A stretch of DNA of 52,235 bases, from assembly GCA_902795065.1 (NCBI GenBank), contig CADBJR010000019.1:1-52235 (forward strand), given 5' to 3'. The notes under the pieces were generated by a model. It did not search any database. It worked only from the letters and a program-made list of their open reading frames with translations, and had not been told where the DNA came from. Below are positions 3,693 to 52,235 of the stretch, in pieces. This stretch comes from an uncultured Coriobacteriaceae bacterium (GTDB taxonomy: Bacteria; Actinomycetota; Coriobacteriia; Coriobacteriales; Atopobiaceae). The position numbers and the translations under genes are program-made. Each line of letters begins with the position of its first letter. Within the stretch, counting starts at the first letter, position 1.

Positions 3693-4979
3693 ATGGCCTC
3701 CATCTACCAGAGCATGTCCGATGCCGAGCTCGCGGCCGAGCTCGAACGTCTCGAGGCGGCGGCGCAGGCGCTGCGCGACAAGGGCCTCAAGCTTGATATG
3801 GCGCGCGGCAAGCCCAGCCCCGAGCAGACCGCGCTCTCCAAGCCGATGCTCGACCTTCTCACCAGCGAGACCGACCTTTCCGACGGTACCGTCCTCACCG
3901 AGAACTACTTCGCGCCCGACGGCCTGCCCTCGGCCCGCAAGCTCGCGGCCGAGCTGCTCGGCGTCGATGCGAAGAACGTGATCGTCAACGGCTCGTCGAG
4001 CCTCAACCTCATGCACGACCTCGTGGCGCACGCCTTCGCGCTCGGCATCTGCGGCAACGAGCCCTGGTGCCGGCAGGGGAGGGCCAAGTTCCTCTGCCCC
4101 GCGCCCGGCTACGACCGCCACTTCACCGTGACCGCCCACTACGGCATCGAGAACATCCCCGTGCCCATGACGCCCGACGGTCCCGACATGGACATGGTGG
4201 AGCGTCTCGTCGAGACGGATCCGCAGGTCAAGGGCATCTGGTGCGTGCCCAAGTACTCCAACCCGCAGGGCTACACCTACTCCGACGAGACGGTTCGCCG
4301 CTTCGCCGCGCTCAAGCCCGCCGCGCCCGATTTCCGCATCTTCTGGGATAACGCCTACATCGTCCACGACCTCTACGACGAGGGCGACGAGCTGCTCAAC
4401 ATCTTCGACGCGCTCGCCGAGACGGGCAACGACGATTTGGTCTACGAGTTCGCCTCCACCGCCAAGGTCACGTTCCCGGGCTCCGGCATGGCGTTCGTCA
4501 CCGCGAGCGACGCCAACATGGCCGACATCCGCGCCCACTTCGCCGCCGTGCGCGTGTGCCCCGAGAAGATCTCGCAGTTCGCGCACGTGGCGTTTTTGCA
4601 CGATGCCGCGGGCGTGCGCGCGCACATGAGGAAGCACGCCGCGGTGCTCCGCCCGCGCTTCGAGCTCGTGGAGCGCAAGCTCTCCGAGGGCCTCGGCGAT
4701 CTGGGCATCGCCACGTGGACGCATCCGCGCGGCGGCTACTTCGTGCTGTTCAACGGACCCGAGGGGTCTGCCAAGGCCATCGTCGCGCTCGCCAAGGAGC
4801 TCGGCGTTACGATGACCGGCGCCGGCGCCACCTGGCCGTACGGCAACGATCCCCACGACTCCGACATCCGCATCGCGCCGACGTTCCCCACGCTCGACGA
4901 CCTCGGGCAGGCGCTCGACGTGTTCGTCTGCGCCGTCAAGCTCGTCAGCGCCCGCTTGGAGGCCTCCTCCAGGGCCTGA
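3693..4979 (+). CDS. PLP-dependent aminotransferase, aspartate aminotransferase Ic / MocR-like group
   Basis: A 428-residue fold-type I aminotransferase. Visible landmarks are LDMARGKPSPEQ near the N terminus, CPAPGYDRHF, the KYSNPQGYTYS stretch, the cofactor-binding FWDNAYIVHDL and the Schiff-base lysine in STAKVTFPGSG. This pattern matches the Aminotran_MocR group that includes the Corynebacterium type Ic aspartate aminotransferase, so transfer between aspartate and 2-oxoglutarate is the likeliest reaction. Substrate choice is inferred from the family. Start ATG follows AAGGAG. TATACT at 3652-3657 is a possible -10. The stop codon abuts the palindromic element that follows, so the gene probably ends its transcript there. 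Confidence 0.85.
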   Translation: MASIYQSMSDAELAAELERLEAAAQALRDKGLKLDMARGKPSPEQTALSKPMLDLLTSETDLSDGTVLTENYFAPDGLPSARKLAAELLGVDAKNVIVNGSSSLNLMHDLVAHAFALGICGNEPWCRQGRAKFLCPAPGYDRHFTVTAHYGIENIPVPMTPDGPDMDMVERLVETDPQVKGIWCVPKYSNPQGYTYSDETVRRFAALKPAAPDFRIFWDNAYIVHDLYDEGDELLNIFDALAETGNDDLVYEFASTAKVTFPGSGMAFVTASDANMADIRAHFAAVRVCPEKISQFAHVAFLHDAAGVRAHMRKHAAVLRPRFELVERKLSEGLGDLGIATWTHPRGGYFVLFNGPEGSAKAIVALAKELGVTMTGAGATWPYGNDPHDSDIRIAPTFPTLDDLGQALDVFVCAVKLVSARLEASSRA

Positions 4980-5168
4980 CCGCGTTTTGGGGACGGTTCC
5001 TTTTCCCGGTAAATCCGCGCTTTTGGGACGGTGCCAGAAGCGCTGTTTTCTAGGAAAACCGTCCATATAGCGCGGTTTTCGGCAGAGGCACTCGCCCATA
5101 GCTGCGCTTTTGGCACCGTCCCAAAAGCGCGGATTTACCGGGAAAAGGAACCGTCCCCAAAACGCGGT
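4979..5168. repeat. 190-base palindromic element, GGGACGGTTCC family
   Basis: Arms 4979-5043 and 5104-5168 are reverse complements almost throughout; the outer 55 bases (4981-5035 with 5112-5166) are perfect. Each arm carries GGGGACGGTTCC and an inner GGGACGGTGCC. The 60-base centre contains a smaller dyad, GTTTTC-TA-GGAAAAC. It starts inside the TGA of the aminotransferase gene. The same family recurs at 14968-15070 and 52077-52136. No open frame or transposase is inside, so this is a REP/MITE-like non-autonomous repeat; the resulting RNA would also be a very stable hairpin. Confidence 0.85.
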
Positions 5169-14967: not shown

Positions 14968-15070
14968 ACCGCGTTTTGGGGACGGTTCCTTTTTCGCGGT
15001 TTTCCGCGCTTTCGGGACGGTTCCAAAAACGCGGAAAACCGCGAAAAAGGAACCGTCCCCAAAACGCGGT
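14968..15070. repeat. 103-base inverted repeat, GGGACGGTTCC family
   Basis: Perfect 41-base arms (14968-15008 and 15030-15070) flank a 21-base loop that itself contains GGGACGGTTCC. The outer sequence CCGCGTTTTGGGGACGG is shared with the element at 4979. It lies between queD and rsmI and ends 19 bases before the rsmI ATG, so the rsmI transcript could begin with or be limited by this hairpin. Confidence 0.88.
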
Positions 15071-31731: not shown

Positions 31732-31818
31732 CGGCTGCGGGCGCAGGGCAGCCTGTCTCCAAAAAGCGCCAAATCGGGAACCGTCCCCCGTTTCTCACTC
31801 GCTCACGCGGAAATTCAT

Positions 31819-31982
31819 GTCGTGATGGCGTTTTTCGGGACTTGTCGGCGGTTTATGCGTATCGAAAAAGACGGGTCCGCAGAATCGGTCGTTCTACCTG
31901 CGCAAACAGAGGCCTCCTATTCGCCCGATGGAAACATGAGACCCCGAAACCGCCGACAAGTCCCGAAAAACGCCATCACGAC
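31819..31982. repeat. 164-base element with perfect 36-base inverted repeats
   Basis: Arms 31819-31854 and 31947-31982 are exact reverse complements and contain CGGGACTTGTCGGCGG. The centre (31855-31946) has no open frame of note. It is flanked by GGGAACCGTCCCCCG at 31767-31781 and GGAACCGTCTCC at 32022-32033, remnants of the GGGACGGTTCC family. The whole 31732-32039 gap therefore holds repeats only. Confidence 0.8.
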
Positions 31983-32039
31983 GCAAAAAACTGCGCAGAA
32001 CGCTCCGAAAAGGTCTATTTCGGAACCGTCTCCTTTTGA

Positions 32040-35649: not shown

Positions 35650-37231
35650 GCCGGTTTCTAGCACGAAGGGCACTTATTCCGAGGTTTTCGGGTGCGAAAT
35701 CGCCATCGGGGTGATCGCGTCGCAAACCGTGGTGTATGAGGCGAGCAAAGAAAAAGACCATCGCATGTCCTAGAATGTCGGTTCGCCAAAACGGACAGAA
35801 AGGAGCAGCGATGGTCAACCCCAATAGGATAGCCCACGACACGCCCGAGCTGAGGGACGTTCTTCTCGGATTCCTCGAGAGCGCATCGAGCCTCTGCGAC
35901 ATGATGAACACGACGATGGCGGCGGTGCTCAACGGGATCATGTCGATCCAGGCCGACGAGGCTTGCGGCGCCAGCTACGGCGAGCGCAGCGAGGCCCGCG
36001 TGAACAGCAGGAACGGCTACCGCAAGCGCGACCTCGACACGACGGTGGGCACGCTGCCGCTCATGGTGCCGAAGCTCCGCAGCGGCTCGTACTTCCCGAC
36101 GGACCTCTTCGAGCGCTGGTCGCGAACAGACCGGGCGCTTGCCGCCGCGGTCGCCGAGATGTACGTCACCGGCACATCGACGCGCAAGGTCGAGAAGGTC
36201 GCCGCGAAGTTCGGCGTGGACTCCCTGTCCAAGGACCAGGTCTCGCGCCTGTGCGCCGTGATCGACGGCGAGGCGGATGCGTTCCTGGCGAAGGACTGGT
36301 CGGGCATGCGCTTCGCCTACCTGTTCCTGGACGCCACCTACGTGAGCCGCCGCGTGAACGGGCGCGTGCGCAAGGAGGCCTTCATCACCGCGATCGGCGT
36401 GGGCGACGGCGGGCACCGCCGCTTCGTGGGGTTCACCTGCGCCAACGCCGAGAGCTACGCGTCGTGGCGCGGCTTCCTGCAGGGCCTCGAGGAACGCGGG
36501 GTGCGCAACGTGCGGCTCGTCACCTCCGACGCACACGACGGCCTCGTCAAGGCGATCGGCGAGATCTGGCCCGAGGCCACCTGGCAGCGCTGCATCGTGC
36601 ACGTCAAGCGCGACGTGCTCGCCAAGATAGACGGCGCGGAGGGCCAGCGCCGGGCCCGCACCGTCATGTCGCCGATCTTCAGGGAGGCGGATCCTGCGCT
36701 CGTGCGCGCCCTCTACCACGAGGCGGTCTGCGAGCTCGAGTCGTTCGCGCCGGCGGCGGCCAAGGTGCTCGAGGACGCCGAGGTCGACGCGCTCGCGCAC
36801 CTGTCGTTCCCCCGCGAGCACCGCATCAAGATCCGCACCAACAACGTCCAGGAGCGCATGAACCGCGAGCTCAAGCGCAGGGCGAAGGTCGTGCAGGCCT
36901 TCCCCTCGACCGGCTCGGTGATGCGGCTGCTGGGCGGCATAGTCGACGAGGTGAACGCGGACTGGGAGTCGGGCAGGCTGTTCATGTCGAGGGAATCGCT
37001 CGCCCCCGTCCTCGCCATGGAGAGGGCGGAGAACCGCATCGACGAGTTCGTCCCGGATGAGGAGGTGAGGTCCAACGCGAGGGCGATCATGATGGTGGCG
37101 CTTGACGAATACGCCAAGGCGGCATAGATTACGAATCGGAAGGCACCGCATTCGAGGCATTGCGATGGCCCTTCATACACCACTTAATCCGACGCAACCC
37201 GGAATAAGTGCCTTTCGTGCTAAAAACCGGC
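35650..37231. mobile_element. IS256-family insertion sequence
   Basis: A 1,582-base element with near-perfect terminal inverted repeats. The left end GCCGGTTTCTAGCACGAAGG (from 35650) and the right end (to 37231) match inward for about 35 bases with a few mismatches. It encodes one transposase. The flanking eight bases (left CGGAATCT, right CATTTTGA) differ, so no target-site duplication is seen; it may be old or have recombined. It sits upstream of the molybdenum-hydroxylase operon. Confidence 0.85.
35811..37127 (+). CDS. IS256-family (Mutator-type) transposase
   Basis: A 438-residue DDE transposase. Catalytic residues are Asp174 (FLDATYVS), Asp240 (VTSDAHDGL) and Glu348 (NNVQERMNREL). The conserved WQRCIVHVKRDVL block is at 258-270 and the N-terminal region has RNGYRKRDLDTTVG. 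Length and reading frame are intact, so it may be active. ATG 35811 follows AAAGGAGC; an in-frame start at 35736 lacks a site. TAGAAT at 35771-35776 is a possible -10. Confidence 0.93.
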   Translation: MVNPNRIAHDTPELRDVLLGFLESASSLCDMMNTTMAAVLNGIMSIQADEACGASYGERSEARVNSRNGYRKRDLDTTVGTLPLMVPKLRSGSYFPTDLFERWSRTDRALAAAVAEMYVTGTSTRKVEKVAAKFGVDSLSKDQVSRLCAVIDGEADAFLAKDWSGMRFAYLFLDATYVSRRVNGRVRKEAFITAIGVGDGGHRRFVGFTCANAESYASWRGFLQGLEERGVRNVRLVTSDAHDGLVKAIGEIWPEATWQRCIVHVKRDVLAKIDGAEGQRRARTVMSPIFREADPALVRALYHEAVCELESFAPAAAKVLEDAEVDALAHLSFPREHRIKIRTNNVQERMNRELKRRAKVVQAFPSTGSVMRLLGGIVDEVNADWESGRLFMSRESLAPVLAMERAENRIDEFVPDEEVRSNARAIMMVALDEYAKAA

Positions 37232-37408
37232 CATTTTGATGCACGCGGGTGTTCCAAAGCTCCCCGACAAGCCCGCTCGCCTGTTGGCGCACGCGAACAC
37301 GGCATCCTCGCGGTAAAATGGAACGAGCCACTGCATGAATTCCCAGATCCGCAGCGTGCGGGCATAAGGGCGATGCGGTGCCAGCCCATGCGCGCAGGGA
37401 GGCAGGTC

Positions 37409-39736
37409 ATGCAGCAGGATGGTTTCCATGTGGTCGGAACGTCGGCGCCCCGCGTCGATGGCTACGACAAGGTCACCGGCCGCGCCCTCTACACAGACGA
37501 TCTGAACATGTCCGGGCAGCTCTATGCCGGCTGCGTCCACAGCAAGCAGCCGCACGCGACGGTCGTGGTGGACACCTCCGCCGCACTTGCGGTCCCCGGT
37601 GTCGTGAAAGTGCTGGTAGAGGCCGATTTTCCCAAGCCGCAGTCGCGCTACGACTGGTTCTACTGCACGTCGCACCCGCGCTTCTGCGGAGACGTGCTCG
37701 CCGTGGTCGTGGCCGAGACGCCCGCAGCCCTCGAGGCGGGCATCGCCGCCGTGCGCGTGAAGTACGAGAAGCTGCCTGCCGTGTTCACCGTCGCCGATGC
37801 GCTCGCACCCGACGCGCCGCAGGTGCGTGCGGAGGGCGTCGCGCTCTCCGACGACGGCGTGCCCGATCCCACGCGCCCCGGCAATGTCTTCCTCGGCTCC
37901 TTCAAACCGCTCCGCAAGGGCGACCTCGAGGCCGGCTTCGCCGCGGCGGACCACATCATGGAGCGCACCTACGACAGTCCGTACGTCGAGCACGCCTACC
38001 TCGAGCCCGAGAGCGTGCTCGTCTCGCCCGAAGGCGCCGACGTCGTGCTCGTGCGCGCGTCGTCGCAGCAGGGCCACGGCCCGCAGGAGTTCGTCGCCGA
38101 CGCCCTGCAGATCCCGATGAGCCGCGTGCGCGCAGTCTCCACCGTGGTGGGCGGCTCGTTCGGCAGCAAGTTCGAGCTCGTCGGCCTCATGTGCGGCCGC
38201 GCGGCCGTCGCGATGGCCGCCACCGGTCGCCCCGTCAAGATGACCTACTCGCGCGAGGATTCCCTGCTCGAGAGCACCAAGCGCCATCCCTTCACCACCA
38301 CCGTCCGCGTGGGCGCGAAGGCCGACGGCACCCTCACGGCGTATCGCTCGTCGCAGGTCGAGAACGCGGGCGCCTACAACAACCAGGCGCCGTGGATGAA
38401 CATCCGCGCGCGCGTGCATTCGGCCGGCCCCTACGACATCCCCAACATCCGCACCGACACCTTCGCGGTCTACACCAACAACACGGTGCCCGGCGCCTTC
38501 CGCGGCTACAGCTCGCCGCAGATCATCTTCGCCAACGAGATGGCCATCGACGATCTGGCCGATGAGCTGGGCATCTCCGTGCTCGACCTCAAGCGCCGCA
38601 ACCTCCTGCGCCGCGGGTCGATCACCGCCACCGGACAGCAGCTCGTGCACGAGACGTTGCTCGTCGACATGATGGAGGACATCGTCCGCGACACCGGCTA
38701 CGAGGAGAAGACCGCAGCGTACGCGGCCGAGACGGGCACCTGGCGCCACGGCATCGGCCTCGTCACGGCCTACCGCGGGGCCGCGCTGGGCGGCGAGGGC
38801 GTCGACGCGTCGGGCGCCATGATGATCGGCATGCAGGACGGCTCGTTCGTGCTGCGGCCCACGCTCATGGAGTTCGGCCAGGGCCTCAACACCGTCTACG
38901 CGCAGATTGCGGCCGAGGCCAGCGGCGTCGCGCTCGCGGACATCCGCGTGGAGACGGTCGACACCACCATCATGGCTGACAGCGGCCTCACCGTGGCGTC
39001 GCGCGGCACGCCCCAGGGCGGCCACGCCGTGCGCATGGCGGGCGAGGCCATCCGCGCGATGATCGAGGAGAGCGCGCGCCAGATGCTCGCCGCCGGCCCG
39101 GACGACGCCATCGAGGTGCGCGACAGCGTGGCGTGGATCGCCGGCAGCCCCGAGCGGAGCGTGCGCGTCTCGGACATCTGGACCATGCGCCGCTACACCG
39201 GCCAGCAGCTCTCGACGTACCAGTGGTACGCCGCGCGGCCGCTCGTGAACGACAACGACACCGGCCAGGGCGAGGCGTTCCAGACCTACGCGTACGGCTG
39301 CTGCGTGGCCGAGGTCTCCGTGAACACCACCACCGGCGAGGTCGTCGTCGACAAGGTCAGCGCCTACCACGACGTGGGCCACGCGCTCAACCCCGCGCTC
39401 GTCCGCGGGCAGATCTACGGTGGCATCCTCATGGGCATGGGCTTCGGCCTGTACGAGGAGTACCGCCTCGACCAGGGCGTCTCGCCCGACACCAACCTCG
39501 ACGCGTACCCCATCGCCACCGCGAAGGACGCGCCGATCGTCGACATCAAGCTCTACGAGTGCGCCGACCCCGAGGGAACGTACGGCGCCAAATCCATCGC
39601 GGAGAACGCGTCCGAGATGATTGGCGCGGCGTGCGCGCTCGCCGTGAAGCACGCCATCAAGCGGCCCGTGCGCAGGGTGCCGCTCACGCCCGAGTACGTG
39701 CTCGAGCTGCTTGCGCGGGGGGAGGGGTGCGCATGA
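37409..39736 (+). CDS. Molybdenum hydroxylase large (molybdopterin-binding) subunit, XdhA-like
   Basis: A 775-residue xanthine-dehydrogenase-family subunit that binds the molybdenum cofactor. Visible motifs are GYDKVTGRALYTDD near the start, GGSFGSKFE and PGAFRGYSSPQ in the active-site region, TVASRGTPQGGHA, and the base Glu732 in YGAKSIAENASE. The first 67 codons of the longer open frame overlap the end of the IS element and lack a ribosome site; ATG 37409 follows GGGAGG. It overlaps the iron-sulfur subunit gene by ATGA. The substrate is probably a purine or other N-heterocycle; sequence alone does not decide. Confidence 0.88.
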   Translation: MQQDGFHVVGTSAPRVDGYDKVTGRALYTDDLNMSGQLYAGCVHSKQPHATVVVDTSAALAVPGVVKVLVEADFPKPQSRYDWFYCTSHPRFCGDVLAVVVAETPAALEAGIAAVRVKYEKLPAVFTVADALAPDAPQVRAEGVALSDDGVPDPTRPGNVFLGSFKPLRKGDLEAGFAAADHIMERTYDSPYVEHAYLEPESVLVSPEGADVVLVRASSQQGHGPQEFVADALQIPMSRVRAVSTVVGGSFGSKFELVGLMCGRAAVAMAATGRPVKMTYSREDSLLESTKRHPFTTTVRVGAKADGTLTAYRSSQVENAGAYNNQAPWMNIRARVHSAGPYDIPNIRTDTFAVYTNNTVPGAFRGYSSPQIIFANEMAIDDLADELGISVLDLKRRNLLRRGSITATGQQLVHETLLVDMMEDIVRDTGYEEKTAAYAAETGTWRHGIGLVTAYRGAALGGEGVDASGAMMIGMQDGSFVLRPTLMEFGQGLNTVYAQIAAEASGVALADIRVETVDTTIMADSGLTVASRGTPQGGHAVRMAGEAIRAMIEESARQMLAAGPDDAIEVRDSVAWIAGSPERSVRVSDIWTMRRYTGQQLSTYQWYAARPLVNDNDTGQGEAFQTYAYGCCVAEVSVNTTTGEVVVDKVSAYHDVGHALNPALVRGQIYGGILMGMGFGLYEEYRLDQGVSPDTNLDAYPIATAKDAPIVDIKLYECADPEGTYGAKSIAENASEMIGAACALAVKHAIKRPVRRVPLTPEYVLELLARGEGCA

Positions 39737-40323: not shown

Positions 40324-41223
40324 ATGAAGGCGGAAGGGTACGTTCGTCCGGCATCGCTCGCCGAGGCTGCGGCCGCCCGCGCTGAGGGCGGAATCATCAT
40401 CGCCGGCGGCACCGACGTCATGGTCAAGGGCCGCGCGCGCGGCGTCTACGCAGGCAGGACGCTCGTCGATGTGTCGAAGCTCGAGGAGCTGCGGCAGGTG
40501 CGCGAGCGGGACGGCGCGGTGGAGATCGGCGCCGCCTGCACGCTTGCCGAGCTGTGCGAGCACCCGCTCATCGCCGGGAAGCTTCCGCTGCTCGCGGACG
40601 CCTGCGCGCACGTGGGCGGCGTCCAGATCCGCAACCGTGCGACCATCGGCGGCAACGTCGTGAACGCGTGCCCCGCCTCCGACGTCATCCCCGCGCTCAT
40701 GGTGCTCGGCGCCCGCGTGCGCACGACCGCGCGCGAGGGCATGCTTGTGCGCACCTGCTATTTCCCGGACGCGGCTGCCAAGAAGACCGTGCTCGAATCC
40801 GATGAGCTCGTGGTCTCGCTCATCGTGCCCGTGCCGCCCGAGGGTGCGTGCTGGCTCTTCCACAAGCTCACGCGCACGCAGGGCATCGGCCTCGCGCGCC
40901 TCAACATCGCCCTCCTGAATCCTGCCAAAGGGACAGGTTATTTGACAGAAAAGCTGATGAATCCTGTCAAAGGGACAGGTTATTTGACAGAAAAGCCGAT
41001 TAACGAGATCGCCGCGAGCGTGGGCGGGCTGTTCCCGAAGCCGTGCGTGCTGCACGTCTCGTCGCCCGAGGACGCGAGGGCCCAGCTCGCCGAGAAGATC
41101 GCCGCCGAGTGCGCCGCGCTCGTCGACTACGACTACAAATCCCGCGTGGCGCCGGCGCTGCTCGCCGACGCCGTCGCAGCCCTGTTGGCAGGGGAGACAC
41201 TCGAGAGGAAGAGGCGCGCATGA
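40324..41223 (+). CDS. Molybdenum hydroxylase FAD subunit with in-frame repeat insertion
   Basis: A 299-residue FAD-binding subunit of the CoxM/XdhB/YgfM type. FAD contacts are IIIAGGTDVMVKGR (about 24-38) and IRNRATIGGNVVNACPASD (about 100-120). Residues 199-226 are two tandem 14-residue units (NPAKGTGYLTEKLM, then NPVKGTGYLTEKPI) encoded by palindromic repeats inserted in frame in the C-terminal domain. The rest of that domain resumes at NEIAASVGGLFPKP. Whether folding survives is unknown. RBS GGGAGG overlaps the preceding stop. Its stop overlaps the amidohydrolase start. Confidence 0.88.
   Translation: MKAEGYVRPASLAEAAAARAEGGIIIAGGTDVMVKGRARGVYAGRTLVDVSKLEELRQVRERDGAVEIGAACTLAELCEHPLIAGKLPLLADACAHVGGVQIRNRATIGGNVVNACPASDVIPALMVLGARVRTTAREGMLVRTCYFPDAAAKKTVLESDELVVSLIVPVPPEGACWLFHKLTRTQGIGLARLNIALLNPAKGTGYLTEKLMNPVKGTGYLTEKPINEIAASVGGLFPKPCVLHVSSPEDARAQLAEKIAAECAALVDYDYKSRVAPALLADAVAALLAGETLERKRRA
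40918..41001. repeat. Two tandem 42-base palindromic repeats inside a coding gene
   Basis: Copies 40918-40959 and 40960-41001 differ at a few bases. Each contains CCTGTCAAAGGGACAGG (the first has CCTGCC) followed by TTATTTGACAG. The core can fold two ways: CCTGTC with GACAGG, or CTGTCAAA with TTTGACAG. The 42-base period preserves the reading frame and adds 28 residues to the FAD subunit. The same core recurs at 43551-43655 and, inverted, at 48442-48472. Confidence 0.9.
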
Positions 41224-42488: not shown

Positions 42489-43577
42489 ATGAAGACCACG
42501 TTCCTCGGCCACGAGCTGCAGTCGCCCATCATCGTGGGGTCGAGCCCCGCGAGCTTCGGCGCCGACGCGATGATCCGCTGCCACGAGGCGGGCGCCGGCG
42601 CGGTGGTGTGCAAGACCATCAACCGCAACGCCGCCGAGAACCCCGACCTGCACATGGTGGTCGCCGGGCGCGAGACGCTCATGAACTGCGAGAAGTGGAC
42701 CGACTTCCCGATGGAGCGCTGGCTCGACGACGAGATGCCGCGCGCCGTCGCGGCGGGCGTGACGTGCATCGCGAGCGTGGGCCACGGCATCGAGGACTCG
42801 CGCCTCTGCGTGGAGCGGCTCGAAGAGATCGGCGTCATGGCCATCGAGCTCGTGAGCTACACCGACGACACGGTGCTGCCGATGCTCGAGGACACCAAGC
42901 GGCGCGTGGACATTCCCGTGATCGTGAAGCTCTCGCCCAACAGCGCGGACCTCATGGGGCACGCGCGGCGCTGCGTCGACGCGGGCGCCGACGCGCTCAC
43001 TGCCTGCGATTCCATCGGTCCGGCGATGCGGATCGACATCGAGACGGGCAAGCCCTTCATGGGCGGCGCGGACGGTTGCGGCTGGCTCACGGGCGCCGCC
43101 ATCTTCCCGTTCACCGTGGCGCGTATCGCGGCGCTGCGGCAGGCGCTGCCCGAGGTCCCGATCATCGGCCTCGGCGGCATCACGGCCTGGCAGGACGGCA
43201 TCGAGTTCGTGCAGGCGGGCGCCGACGCGATGGGGCTCGCGAGCGCGGCGATCCTCCATGGGCCCGGCTTCATCACCCGCATGAACGCGCGGGTGGATGC
43301 GTGGTGCGCCGAGCATGACGTGACGGACCTCGCGCAGATCCGCGGACGCGTGCTGGAGCACCTGCCGGTTGTGCAGGAGGACGGCTACGAGATGTGCTTC
43401 GACTTCGGGAAGTGCCGTCACTGCAATGCCTGCGTCACGGCGTGCGCCTACGCGGCGCGCAGCTTCGACGAGGGCGGATTCGCACAGGTGGACGAGGCGC
43501 TCTGCCGCCACTGCGGCCTCTGCGTATCGGTCTGCTCCTTCGGCGCCCTCAACCTGTCAAAGGGACAGGTTATTTGA
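42489..43577 (+). CDS. PreA-like dihydroorotate/dihydropyrimidine dehydrogenase with 2[4Fe-4S] domain
   Basis: A 362-residue flavoprotein. Residues 1-300 form a DHOD-type FMN barrel (SPIIVGSSPASFGAD, VKLSPNSADL, IIGLGGITAWQDGIEFVQAG). Residues 320-355 hold two CxxCxxCxxxC ferredoxin clusters (CRHCNACVTAC, CRHCGLCVSVC). This is the layout of PreA, the NAD-dependent dihydropyrimidine dehydrogenase subunit. The last eight residues (NLSKGQVI) and the TGA stop are supplied by the first palindromic repeat of the array at 43551, so the native C terminus has been replaced. It directly follows the amidohydrolase stop. Confidence 0.87.
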   Translation: MKTTFLGHELQSPIIVGSSPASFGADAMIRCHEAGAGAVVCKTINRNAAENPDLHMVVAGRETLMNCEKWTDFPMERWLDDEMPRAVAAGVTCIASVGHGIEDSRLCVERLEEIGVMAIELVSYTDDTVLPMLEDTKRRVDIPVIVKLSPNSADLMGHARRCVDAGADALTACDSIGPAMRIDIETGKPFMGGADGCGWLTGAAIFPFTVARIAALRQALPEVPIIGLGGITAWQDGIEFVQAGADAMGLASAAILHGPGFITRMNARVDAWCAEHDVTDLAQIRGRVLEHLPVVQEDGYEMCFDFGKCRHCNACVTACAYAARSFDEGGFAQVDEALCRHCGLCVSVCSFGALNLSKGQVI

Positions 43578-43681
43578 CAGAACACGCACAGAAACCTGTC
43601 AAAGGGACAGGTTATTTGACAGAAACCTGTCAAAGGGACAGGTTATTTGACAGAACACGCACAGGGGGACAGGTTGCCTGA
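43551..43681. repeat. Array of three palindromic repeats plus a partial copy
   Basis: Full copies at 43551-43582, 43593-43624 and 43624-43655 (core CCTGTCAAAGGGACAGG), with the spacer ACACGCAC between copies 1 and 2 and again after copy 3; then the partial GGGGGACAGGTTGCCTGAC to 43681. The first copy forms the end of the PreA-like gene. Spacers are short and nearly identical, unlike CRISPR. Confidence 0.9.
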
Positions 43682-45426: not shown

Positions 45427-45529
45427 CGCGCAGGGGGACAGGTTGTTCGTTCCCTTTCGGCACAGGGGGACGGGTTTGAAACCCGTCCCCCTGTGCCGAA
45501 AGGGAACGAACAACCTGTCCCCCTGCGCG
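45427..45529. repeat. 103-base perfect palindrome, GGGACAGGTT family
   Basis: Left arm 45427-45477 is the exact reverse complement of 45479-45529, with a single G at 45478 in the centre. The arms carry GGGGGACAGGTTGTTCG and GGGGGACGGGTTT. It touches the TAA of the MATE gene and lies between two minus-strand genes, so the RNA would form a 51-bp stem. No open frame inside. Confidence 0.93.
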
Positions 45530-47823: not shown

Positions 47824-47898
47824 GTGACAATTCTCCTCGTAGGACTTTTGTCAAGGTGACGAGCACCTTGACAAAAGTCCTACGAGGAGAATTGTCAC
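47824..47898. repeat. 75-base inverted repeat with 35-base perfect arms
   Basis: Arms 47824-47858 and 47864-47898 flank a 5-base loop. They contain GTGACAATTCTCCTCG and TTTTGTCAAGGTG. It is unrelated in core to the GGGACGGTTCC family but has similar architecture. It sits in the divergent region between the nitroreductase and the fused hydroxylase genes, so it overlaps any promoter there. Confidence 0.9.
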
Positions 47899-47970
47899 GC
47901 CAGGATGTTGTATCGTTAGAGGGTGATACTGGGCTCGTGCGGGGTGTCGGCCCGCGCTGGAGGTACTGCC

Positions 47971-50733
47971 GTGGAGCAGACCGAACTGATCGTCAATGGC
48001 CAGACCTATCCCATCCTCTATGAAAAGAACTGGAACCTCCTCTACGTGCTGCGCGAGGTGCTCGGCCTGACCGGCACCAAATGCGGCTGCGGCACCAACG
48101 ACTGCGGCGCGTGCCGCGTGATCGTGGACGGCGAGGCGAGAAACTCGTGCGTCCTCATGGTGCGCAACCTCGCTGGCAAGCGCATAGAGACCATCGAGGG
48201 CCTCTCGCGCGGCACCCAGCTGCACCCCATCCAGCAGGCATTCATCGACGCGGGCGCCGTGCAGTGCGGCTTCTGCACGCCGGGCATGATCATGAGCGCG
48301 AAGGCGTTGCTCGACCGCTGTCCGGACCCCACGGAGGAGGAGATCCGCGCGGCGCTGGAGCCCAACCTCTGCCGCTGCACGGGGTACGTGAAGATCGTCG
48401 AGGCGGTCCAGCTGGCTGCCAAGAGGATGCGCGAGGGAGAAAACCTGTCAAATAACCTGTCCCTTTGTCAGGAAGACGGGGTGATCGGCAAGCCGACGCC
48501 GGTGTTCGATGCGCGGCTCAAGGTGTCGGGCCAGCTGCAGTACGTCGATGACATGAAGCTGCCCGGCATGCTCCACGCCAAGATCCTGCTCTCCACGCAC
48601 GCCCACGCCAACATCGCCTCCATCGACACGAGCGCCGCCGAGGCCCTGCCCGGCGTCCGCGCGGTCATCACATACAAGGACGCCCCCGACGTGCGCTTCA
48701 ACGGCAACGGGGAGGACTGGGACATCCTCGAGAGCGAGCGCGTGCTCGACTCCCGCGTGCGCTACGTGGGCGATAAGGTCGCGGCCGTCGCGGCGGATAC
48801 CGACGCCATCGCCGCGGCCGCCCTCAAGCTCATCAAGGTCGAGTACGAGGACCTGCCCGCGTACTTCGATGCGGAGGAGGCCGTCGCTCCCGATGCCGTG
48901 AAGCTCCACGATTGGAACGAGAACGGCAACATATTGTGGGAGGTGGACAATACCTTCGGCGACCTCGACGCGGGCTTCTCTGCCGCTGACTTCGTGCTCG
49001 ACGAGCGTTTCGAGGTGCCCGCCATCCACCATGCGGCCATGGAGACGCACGGCTGCGTCGCCTCCTTCGACGCCGATGGCAAGCTCACGGTGTGGTCGAG
49101 CTCGCAGGACGTGTTCGGCAAGCGCCGCAACCTCGCCAAGATCTTCGGTCTGCCCTACGCCAAGGTGCGCGTGCTCGCGCCTGCGCTGGGCGGCGGCTTC
49201 GGCGGCAAGATCGACACCTCGACCGAACCCGTGGCCGCGCTGCTCTCGCTCAAGACCGGCCGTCCCGTGAAGTGCGTCCTCTCCCGCCAGGAGGACATCC
49301 AGGCGACGCCGACGCGCCACGCGGAGACGATCTACGTGCGTGCGGGCTTCAAGGACACCGGCGAGCTCACCGCGCTGGACTACACGGTCTGGATCAACGC
49401 AGGTGCGCATTCTGGCGGCACGATGAGCGTCGCCTGGGCGTCGGGCGGCAAGTTCTTCAAACTCTTCAAGTGCCCCAACATGCGCAACCACGCCATACCG
49501 GTCTGCACCAACCGCCAGAACGCCGGAGCGATGAGAGGATTCGGTTCTCCGCAGGTGTTCTGGGTATTCTCGCAACTTATTGCCCAAGTGTCGGAGCGCA
49601 CGGGCATCGACCCTACGGTGCTCTACGACCTCAACCTGCACGATCCCGATACCGTTGACCAACGCGGCGAGGACCTCGGCAACTTCCGTGCCAAGGACTG
49701 CCTCGCCCGTGCGAAGGAGCTCTTCGGGTGGGATGAGGCGGTGGCCGAGGCACGTGCCAGCCAAGCCGCCGGCGGGACCAAGCGCATCGGCGTGGGCCTT
49801 GCGGTGGCGCCGCACGGCTCGTCGATGTACGGCGTCATGCCCGATACCTGCGGCATCACCATCAAGATGAACCTCGACGGCTCGATCACGCTGTTCAGCG
49901 GTATGAGCGACATGGGCAACGGCTCCAACACCGTGCAGCGGATGATCGTTGCCGAGGTCCTCTCGATGCCGCTCGACAACATCGCGCTCGTCCATACCGA
50001 CACCGAGCTCACGGGCTACGACGTGGGCATCTTCGCCAGCCGCGGCACCTACGTGGGCGGCGGTGCGGCCTACCAGTGCGCATCCAAGGTGGCAGCCGAG
50101 ATCCGCTCCATCGCCGCGGGTCTGCTCGATGCCCCTGCCGACGCGCTGGAGCTCCGTGCCAACGGCGTGGGCGTCATCGGCGAGCCCGAGCGCTGGGTGA
50201 CCATGGAACAGGTTGCCCAACACGCCCACAAGCTGGAGCGCGACATCATCATCGGCGGCAATTTCGGCAGCCGCGCCGTGCCCGCGAGCGCCGGCGCGCA
50301 CATGGTGAAGGTGGAGGTCGACCTTGCGACGGGCGCCGTCACGCCGCTCGTCTACGCTGCCGTGCACGACGTGGGCCGCGCGCTCAACCCCATGGGGCTC
50401 GAGGGCCAGGTCCACGGCGGCATCCAGATGGGTCTGGGCTATGCGCTCTCCGAGGGCCTCTCGCTCAAGCCCGACGGCTCCGGCGCGCTCAAGAACCGCT
50501 TCCTCCGCGACTGCCATCTCTTCCGCGCGACCGACATGCCGCGCGACATCCGCGTGGAGTTCCTCGAGAGCGAGGAGCACACCGGTCCGTTCGGCGCAAA
50601 GAGTGTGGGGGAGTGCGGCGTCGTCCCCGTGGCGGGCGCCGTGGCCGCGGCCGTGGGCAATGCGCTGGGCCGCACGTTCACCAAGCTGCCGATCGACGAG
50701 GAGGCCGTGGTATGTGCCGCACGCGAATCGTAA
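47971..50733 (+). CDS. XdhD-like fused [2Fe-2S]/molybdopterin hydroxylase
   Basis: A 920-residue protein joining the iron-sulfur subunit (residues 1-155: CGCGTNDCGACRV, CGFCTPGM, LCRCTGY) to the molybdopterin subunit (170-920: GGGFGGKIDTSTEP, AGAMRGFGSPQ and the base Glu881 in FGAKSVGECG). E. coli XdhD has the same fusion and order. Residues about 157-168 (NLSNNLSLCQ) come from an inverted palindromic repeat inserted in frame in the linker, a tolerant place. GTG 47971 follows GGAGG. No FAD subunit is adjacent; the one at 40324 could serve. It overlaps the dihydropyrimidinase gene by 22 bases. Confidence 0.88.
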   Translation: MEQTELIVNGQTYPILYEKNWNLLYVLREVLGLTGTKCGCGTNDCGACRVIVDGEARNSCVLMVRNLAGKRIETIEGLSRGTQLHPIQQAFIDAGAVQCGFCTPGMIMSAKALLDRCPDPTEEEIRAALEPNLCRCTGYVKIVEAVQLAAKRMREGENLSNNLSLCQEDGVIGKPTPVFDARLKVSGQLQYVDDMKLPGMLHAKILLSTHAHANIASIDTSAAEALPGVRAVITYKDAPDVRFNGNGEDWDILESERVLDSRVRYVGDKVAAVAADTDAIAAAALKLIKVEYEDLPAYFDAEEAVAPDAVKLHDWNENGNILWEVDNTFGDLDAGFSAADFVLDERFEVPAIHHAAMETHGCVASFDADGKLTVWSSSQDVFGKRRNLAKIFGLPYAKVRVLAPALGGGFGGKIDTSTEPVAALLSLKTGRPVKCVLSRQEDIQATPTRHAETIYVRAGFKDTGELTALDYTVWINAGAHSGGTMSVAWASGGKFFKLFKCPNMRNHAIPVCTNRQNAGAMRGFGSPQVFWVFSQLIAQVSERTGIDPTVLYDLNLHDPDTVDQRGEDLGNFRAKDCLARAKELFGWDEAVAEARASQAAGGTKRIGVGLAVAPHGSSMYGVMPDTCGITIKMNLDGSITLFSGMSDMGNGSNTVQRMIVAEVLSMPLDNIALVHTDTELTGYDVGIFASRGTYVGGGAAYQCASKVAAEIRSIAAGLLDAPADALELRANGVGVIGEPERWVTMEQVAQHAHKLERDIIIGGNFGSRAVPASAGAHMVKVEVDLATGAVTPLVYAAVHDVGRALNPMGLEGQVHGGIQMGLGYALSEGLSLKPDGSGALKNRFLRDCHLFRATDMPRDIRVEFLESEEHTGPFGAKSVGECGVVPVAGAVAAAVGNALGRTFTKLPIDEEAVVCAARES
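48442..48472 (-). repeat. In-frame inverted copy of the CCTGTCAAAGGGACAGG-type repeat
   Basis: Read on the minus strand, the segment gives CCTGACAAAGGGACAGG followed by TTATTTGACAG. It encodes ten residues in the linker of the fused hydroxylase without breaking the frame. Confidence 0.88.
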
Positions 50734-52076: not shown

Positions 52077-52136
52077 CCGCGCTTTGGGGAACCGTCCCAA
52101 AAGCGCGGAAAACCGCGAAAAAGGAACCGTCCCCAA
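52077..52136. repeat. Shortened GGGACGGTTCC-family repeat
   Basis: It starts at the base after the TGA of the dihydropyrimidinase gene. CCGCGCTTT (52077-52085) pairs with AAAGCGCGG (52100-52108), and the right half GAAAAAGGAACCGTCCCCAA matches the end of the element at 14968. The left arm is truncated. Confidence 0.8.
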
Positions 52137-52235
52137 GGTAGTGTGCCGAAAGCTGGTGTCATCAATCCCGGCGCGAGCGGCAGGCCTTGAGCCTGCCCGA
52201 GCGGCGGGACGACGCCCGGAACCGTCTGCATTCTA
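52137..52235. other. Gene-free tail with a small hairpin
   Basis: No convincing gene. A 7-bp hairpin, GGCAGGC-CTTGA-GCCTGCC, lies at 52179-52197, in a CG-rich stretch that ends with another GGAACCGTC fragment near 52218. The window stops here. Confidence 0.5.

Follow-up and report, generated by a model that had tools for sequence, protein, structure and literature searches.

The gene for the FAD-binding subunit of a molybdenum hydroxylase contains, in this genome, two palindromic repeat units that are read in frame, raising the question of how DNA with the look of a mobile element became part of a coding sequence and what the host gene has made of it. The window, i.e., the whole stretch of 52,235 nucleotides that was analyzed, is contig 19 of the 53 contigs of a 2.24-Mb genome (G000), and it was compared with those of the congeners G001 to G004 and of wider sets of relatives. 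Its molybdenum-hydroxylase operon comprises a molybdopterin subunit (37208-39736), a [2Fe-2S] subunit, the FAD subunit (40324-41223), an amidohydrolase gene that starts at 41220, and, at 42489-43577, a dihydroorotate dehydrogenase/PreA-like gene. The operon genes co-occur in G002 and G003 too. The host genes and repeat copies in question are as follows.

40324..41223, + strand: gene for the FAD-binding subunit, host of two in-frame repeats (ORF of 299 aa; PF00941 FAD_binding_5, E 4.9e-40)
40918..41001, + strand: two 42-bp units in tandem, each made of a REP and a spacer
40922..40948, + strand: REP copy 1, CTGCCAAAGGGACAGGTTATTTGACAG, one mismatch relative to the consensus, read as ..AKGTGYLTE..
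40964..40990, + strand: REP copy 2, exact consensus, read as ..VKGTGYLTE..
42489..43577, + strand: dihydroorotate dehydrogenase/PreA-like gene, in which a REP supplies the last residues, NLSKGQVI, and the TGA stop
43554..43580, + strand: REP copy that supplies the PreA-like gene with its 3' end
43596..43622, + strand: REP copy, tandem, intergenic
43627..43653, + strand: REP copy, tandem, intergenic
47923..50733, + strand: fused [2Fe-2S]/molybdopterin-binding hydroxylase of 936 aa, second host gene in the window (Fer2_2 at 90-163, Ald_Xan_dh_C at 202-312)
48445..48471, - strand: REP copy, reversed, in the interdomain linker (Fe-S to molybdenum), read in frame as NLSNNLSLCQ

An earlier note on this DNA had described palindromic repeats in frame within the FAD subunit at 40918-41001, and the tandem array, the palindrome positions, and the open ORF all agree with it. 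TRF reports a 42-bp unit at 40916-41000, in 2.0 copies with a 95% match; inside each unit lies a 27-bp palindrome, CTGYCAAAGGGACAGGTTATTTGACAG. The single 12-mer peptide that the note saw repeated twice is in fact two different peptides, the first unit being translated as NPAKGTGYLTEKLM and the second as NPVKGTGYLTEKPI. In its 28-base form, the palindrome matches the window six times, versus none in 100 dinucleotide shuffles. The consensus palindrome is open in three of its six frames, including the one used by the FAD gene. The host protein also gives an XdhB-like match, which falls below the curated cut-off in the profile search.

The 42-bp (14-codon) units are present twice, as claimed, but they do not add 28 residues to the protein: counted from the alignment, the net gain at the site relative to the insert-free congener G003 is 20 codons, so that the native turn is partly gone or altered. 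CutM of CO dehydrogenase and other PDB homologues align across the insert region, where few residues separate two hydrophobic stretches, and our own reading is that the insert may sit where two strands of the C-terminal domain are joined by a turn. The single-sequence AlphaFold model of the subunit, with a mean pLDDT of 36, is unusable as structural evidence. The period of 42 bases is divisible by three, as had been pointed out, yet this is true only locally: the 13 tandem spacings in G000 range from 31 to 42 bp, and 4 are multiples of three, which rules out an element with a built-in coding period.

The palindrome belongs to a sizeable family. At up to three mismatches, G000 carries 49 copies, 23 of them exact (reversed control, 0), arranged as singles, direct tandems with site-specific spacers, and several inverted pairs, and the palindrome can form two alternative hairpins. 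With the same tolerance, this repeat type occurs in 4 of 150 relatives, namely, G000 itself, G004 (25 copies), G062 (one copy), and G092 (one copy). A wider pattern is found in 12 of the 150 genomes, including all five congeners (43, 26, 21, 70, and 26 copies in G000 to G004, respectively). A scan of genome contigs from 84,980 species, a set that possibly does not include G000, showed the exact repeat on three contigs only, all from one uncultured Coriobacteriales MAG. Inspection by eye of 39 distinct contexts and of the G004 transposase locus L108 showed no GTAG/GT(A/G)G or CGTC tag beside the stem. The repeat is short (within 20 to 40 bp), palindromic, and multicopy, and it is mostly extragenic with inverted doublets; it is a RAYT-associated REP-like element, not one of the GTAG or CGTC family.

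Other palindromes share the window. A second family (GGGGACGGTTCC...) lies outside called genes at 4979-5168, 14968-15070, 31777-32033, and 52080-52144; repeats of this type flank another RAYT of G000 (L003), and a pair of them is in frame in the second Mo-hydroxylase linker of G002. A perfect 51-bp inverted repeat with a 1-nt gap, of the GGGGACAGGTTGTT... type, is intergenic at 45427-45529, and a perfect 35-bp inverted repeat with a 5-nt loop (47824-47898) stands directly upstream of the second Mo-hydroxylase gene. Upstream of the operon, 32-bp inverted repeats (94%) at 35650-35681 and 37200-37231, 1.5 kb apart, enclose most of the ORF at 35736-37127.

The likely source of mobility was found in a sister species. 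PF01797 transposases scoring over the cut-off are present in all five congeners, and one of them, L108 of G004 (ORF 1477-2241), stands between two upstream copies of the repeat and two downstream copies in inverted orientation; its stop codon is overlapped by one of the latter. L108 matches the NCBIfam REP-associated tyrosine transposase model NF047646 with an E of 1.3e-16 and 60.8 bits, under the cut-off of 80, and shares with all 14 transposases checked the HxH and Y..NP motifs, which we take to be catalytic. Related RAYTs in G001, G002, and G003 (52 to 60% identical to L108) are each flanked by their own version of the palindrome. The multicopy palindrome and the RAYT flanked by its inverted copies in G004 bear out the likeness to REP-derived protein insertions that had been suggested. 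G000 holds six RAYT-like genes (L001-L006) in 2.24 Mb, several of them with their own flanking palindromes. None of these six, once checked, proved to be flanked by this exact repeat; the one nearest to L108 (L002, 52%) is flanked by a different palindrome, itself present in 12 copies. In G000, the transposase that the sister species shows for this repeat may have been lost, left unassembled, or replaced. Judging from this arrangement of genes and repeats, a RAYT would be what moves the repeat.

The FAD site itself exists in three states: empty in G003 (ALIGTLLGGVVEGLSISMGG), with one divergent copy in G002 (ALLGTFRDKGTGALSEKTINHVDVCMGG), and with two copies in G000. FAD homologues were matched in 50 of 150 genomes, 30 loci were fetched, and 14 were aligned; the insert is present in 2 of these 14, G000 and G002 only, which contradicts an ancient peptide carried by all of the relatives compared. 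The core motif appears in 2 of 29 other homologue loci, that of G002, at the FAD site, and that of G077, in the native cysteine region, and the FAD protein used as a query had no match in the genome-contig set (84,980 species). At the operon, G000 and G002 are the closest pair, the dS of the molybdopterin subunit being 0.40 between them and 0.69 between either and G003. The simplest order of events, and the best reading of the series, would be a single insertion that preceded the separation of G000 and G002 and then a local tandem duplication in G000. Two separate insertions for the two G000 units are less likely than a tandem duplication, because the two 42-bp units have a spacer in common (95% match) and G000 commonly shows tandem arrays whose spacers are particular to the site. 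Of the two units regarded by the earlier note as mobile insertions, the first can keep that description, while the second is best read as a duplicate.

Across G000, the 49 copies, grouped by hand, make up 29 sites, of which 4 are translated within genes, 4 form gene 3' ends or stops, and 21 are intergenic. Copies lie inside genes at three sites, the FAD subunit, the linker of the second Mo-hydroxylase, and an anti-sigma-like gene that adjoins an ECF sigma factor gene, carries an inverted doublet, and has no Pfam match itself. The fourth translated site is the N terminus of an AmmeMemoRadiSam radical SAM enzyme (MILSKGQVICQVCP). In both the FAD subunit and the second Mo-hydroxylase, the whole repeat lies in the ORF, in frame, in a protein with a known domain. 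The 3' ends or stops are those of the PreA-like gene, an XRE regulator, a ROK kinase, and a nucleosidase. Two of the copies in the window had been overlooked before: that at 48445-48471, the third in frame, and the gene end at 43554-43580. Gene calls were based on third-codon-position GC and the longest ORF, with starts adjusted by eye from translations, and the intergenic counts depend on leaving out N-terminal overlaps at L089, L091, L094, and L105 as upstream of the likely start. In G003, among the 26 of 70 reported copies that were looked at, one inverted pair falls inside a U32 peptidase gene (L207, C1:534600-537600, positions 1457-1518, in frame and C-terminal to the DUF3656 domain) and three copies overlap likely miscalled starts.

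If the window is typical of the genome (85% coding) and sites are independent, the chance of 4 or fewer translated sites among 29 is about 5e-17, and that of 8 or fewer genic sites is about 9e-12. Since genic sites are far fewer than chance would give, insertions into genes must be strongly purged or avoided, and most of them appear to be purged. The idea that the repeat spreads inside genes without killing them stands insofar as further in-frame copies exist elsewhere and the FAD gene is under purifying selection, but such events are rare (4 of 29 sites versus the roughly 85% expected). In copies whose frame the consensus would close, TGA has become TGT twice and TAA has become CAA once; the second Mo-hydroxylase copy, with TGT for the consensus TGA, stays open in this way. 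These changes alone are no evidence of selection, because any open frame must show them.

Several of these sites can be followed across congeners. Among 40 genomes, four orthologues of the anti-sigma-like gene were found: those of G000 and G004 carry the doublet, and those of G001 and G003 lack it. The radical SAM N terminus carries a REP in G000, G002, and G004; G001, G003, and six others aligned have none there. The PreA-like gene ends at equal length in NLSKGQVI (G000), SVEKGGIR (G002), and AVERGAVR (G003). In the second Mo-hydroxylase linker, G000 has this REP and G002 has a GGGACGGTTCC-type inverted pair resembling the repeats around a second G002 transposase; G004 has an inverted repeat there, and G003 has a sequence of no assigned type. 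That the G004 inverted repeat represents another REP family has no support, there being no second exact site in that genome and counts at or below the reversed control.

The reading that we favor, with a probability of roughly 0.87, is that the repeat is a non-autonomous REP of a RAYT lineage that entered the FAD gene in the common ancestor of G000 and G002, was tolerated there, and doubled in tandem in G000. The element would belong to the RAYT (IS200-like tyrosine transposase) lineage of the genus. One copy would have entered at the turn of the C-terminal domain, in the element's open frame and with a net length divisible by three, and would have survived because the turn tolerates added residues. 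Copy and flank would then have doubled in G000 (42 bp, 14 codons), probably through slippage or unequal recombination. The same element would be translated at the three other G000 sites (Mo-hydroxylase linker, anti-sigma-like protein, and radical SAM N terminus) and would form the 3' ends of the four further genes. Both the timing of the FAD insertion and the tolerance of the insert are what we infer from these comparisons.

A different history, possible although we consider it unlikely, is that the FAD loop is a hot spot, independently hit or repeatedly overwritten in G000 and G002. The 3' arm of each FAD-site copy resembles the REP type of its own genome, the loop of the radical SAM N-terminal copy does likewise, and the second Mo-hydroxylase linker holds different REP families in the two species. 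Yet the G002 copy at the FAD site does not closely match the type usual in that genome, both species have the flank GAAAAGNCGATTAAC downstream, and the anti-sigma doublet appears to be inherited. Counted from the alignment, the G000 and G002 copies differ at 7 of 28 positions, and because of these differences and the likeness of the 3' arms, separate hits or overwriting in each species could still have taken place. The coding copies also differ by a compensated stem change, from TGTCA/TGACA in G000 to TGACA/TGTCA in G002, which we dropped as a sign of selection on structure, as it may reflect different REP types. More speculatively, and with odds well against it, certain loops, linkers, and gene ends in the genus would be standing sites of landing and exchange, where REP types arrive one after another, duplicate, and overwrite each other, with the same codons affected in different species. 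If this were true, stretches of protein would be rewritten by the evolution of a mobile element and not by ordinary mutation.

It is improbable that the inserts persist because the FAD gene is decaying and nothing depends on it. G000 alone lacks 17 codons with two cysteines at about 40734 (near residue 137), present in G002 and G003. The missing cysteines belong to a DCPxCLxH stretch, which is similar to the Fe-S loop of 4-hydroxybenzoyl-CoA reductase beta. Moreover, the dN/dS of the FAD gene relative to the sisters (0.34 for G000-G002 and 0.41 for G000-G003) is high next to those of four operon neighbors (0.14 to 0.34). However, the G002-G003 comparison also gives 0.40, so the raised ratio is a trait of the FAD gene. 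Against decay, too, G000 has the fewest residues unique to one species (20, versus 25 and 37), its frame is open, and its third-position GC is 0.86. The gene is under purifying selection, and the REP-derived peptides are probably produced as protein in a working enzyme, even though full activity of the G000 subunit is not to be assumed given the missing codons and cysteines.

Positive selection for REP-coded peptides as useful linkers is still less plausible. In-frame retention at several orthologous sites would fit it, as would the fact that in G000 and G004 a REP-coded TGT provides the conserved Cys of CxxCP in the radical SAM enzyme, but neutral tolerance is enough in loops, linkers, and termini, which is where the sites lie, and the peptide sequence drifts from species to species. 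Lastly, an old conserved part of the protein whose palindromic DNA is a by-product of its codons, a view to which the K-G-T-G-x-L-S/T-E-K-x-I-N shared with the G002 orthologue at the same place lends its one support, is ruled out for practical purposes by its absence from 12 of 14 aligned homologues, the congener G003 included, and by the same DNA at 29 G000 sites, 21 of them intergenic and some of the rest read in different frames and from the opposite strand.

In-frame REPs as such are known from PMC3733652 (BMC Genomics 2013), and so are the Rickettsia palindromic elements (RPE). According to the sections of PMC3733652 on intragenic REPs, the short palindromes of RAYT genomes, of GTAG and CGTC families, are mostly intergenic, some are translated within ORFs, and REP termini give stop codons to flanking ORFs, all of which is seen here. 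Placement in flexible linkers is offered there as a reason for neutrality; two Xanthomonas species carry different REPs at about the same recB site, and the paper also describes RAYT genes with other terminal repeats at their flanks. The terms "Coriobact" and "Actinobact" are absent from its main text. Unlike the REPs treated in those sections, our repeat has no evident GTAG or CGTC tag, its host genes are not repair genes, and one site shows absent, single, and double states in sister species. RPE, likewise in-frame palindromes in protein genes and thought to be tolerated (Ogata et al., as presented in PMC3733652 and PMC2229807), are given as 105 to 146 bp long in PMC2229807; the element here, at 27 bp, from Coriobacteriales and with a congener RAYT flanked by the repeat, is not one of these Rickettsia elements. 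The passages on RAYT/REP units and REPINs in PMC2817692 and PMC3116915 describe a transposase gene between two inverted REPs, inverted doublets, and REPs and RAYTs that change together between species, as they do here, whereas those accounts concern extragenic copies, and the Stenotrophomonas REPs have a GT(A/G)G head that is lacking in our repeat.

What is added here is a new lineage, a repeat without a GTAG or CGTC tag, a congener transposase, and one orthologous site found empty, single, and double. The in-frame REP case is real and well supported, ordinary in kind but with comparative evidence above the average. For annotation in this genus, tails of the NLSKGQVI type and motifs of the KGTGYLTE type should be taken as mobile DNA and not as domains. 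The natural series of zero, one, and two copies, together with several shared in-gene sites and a likely transposase in a congener, makes it testable how often mobile palindromes become protein and whether they are merely tolerated or kept.
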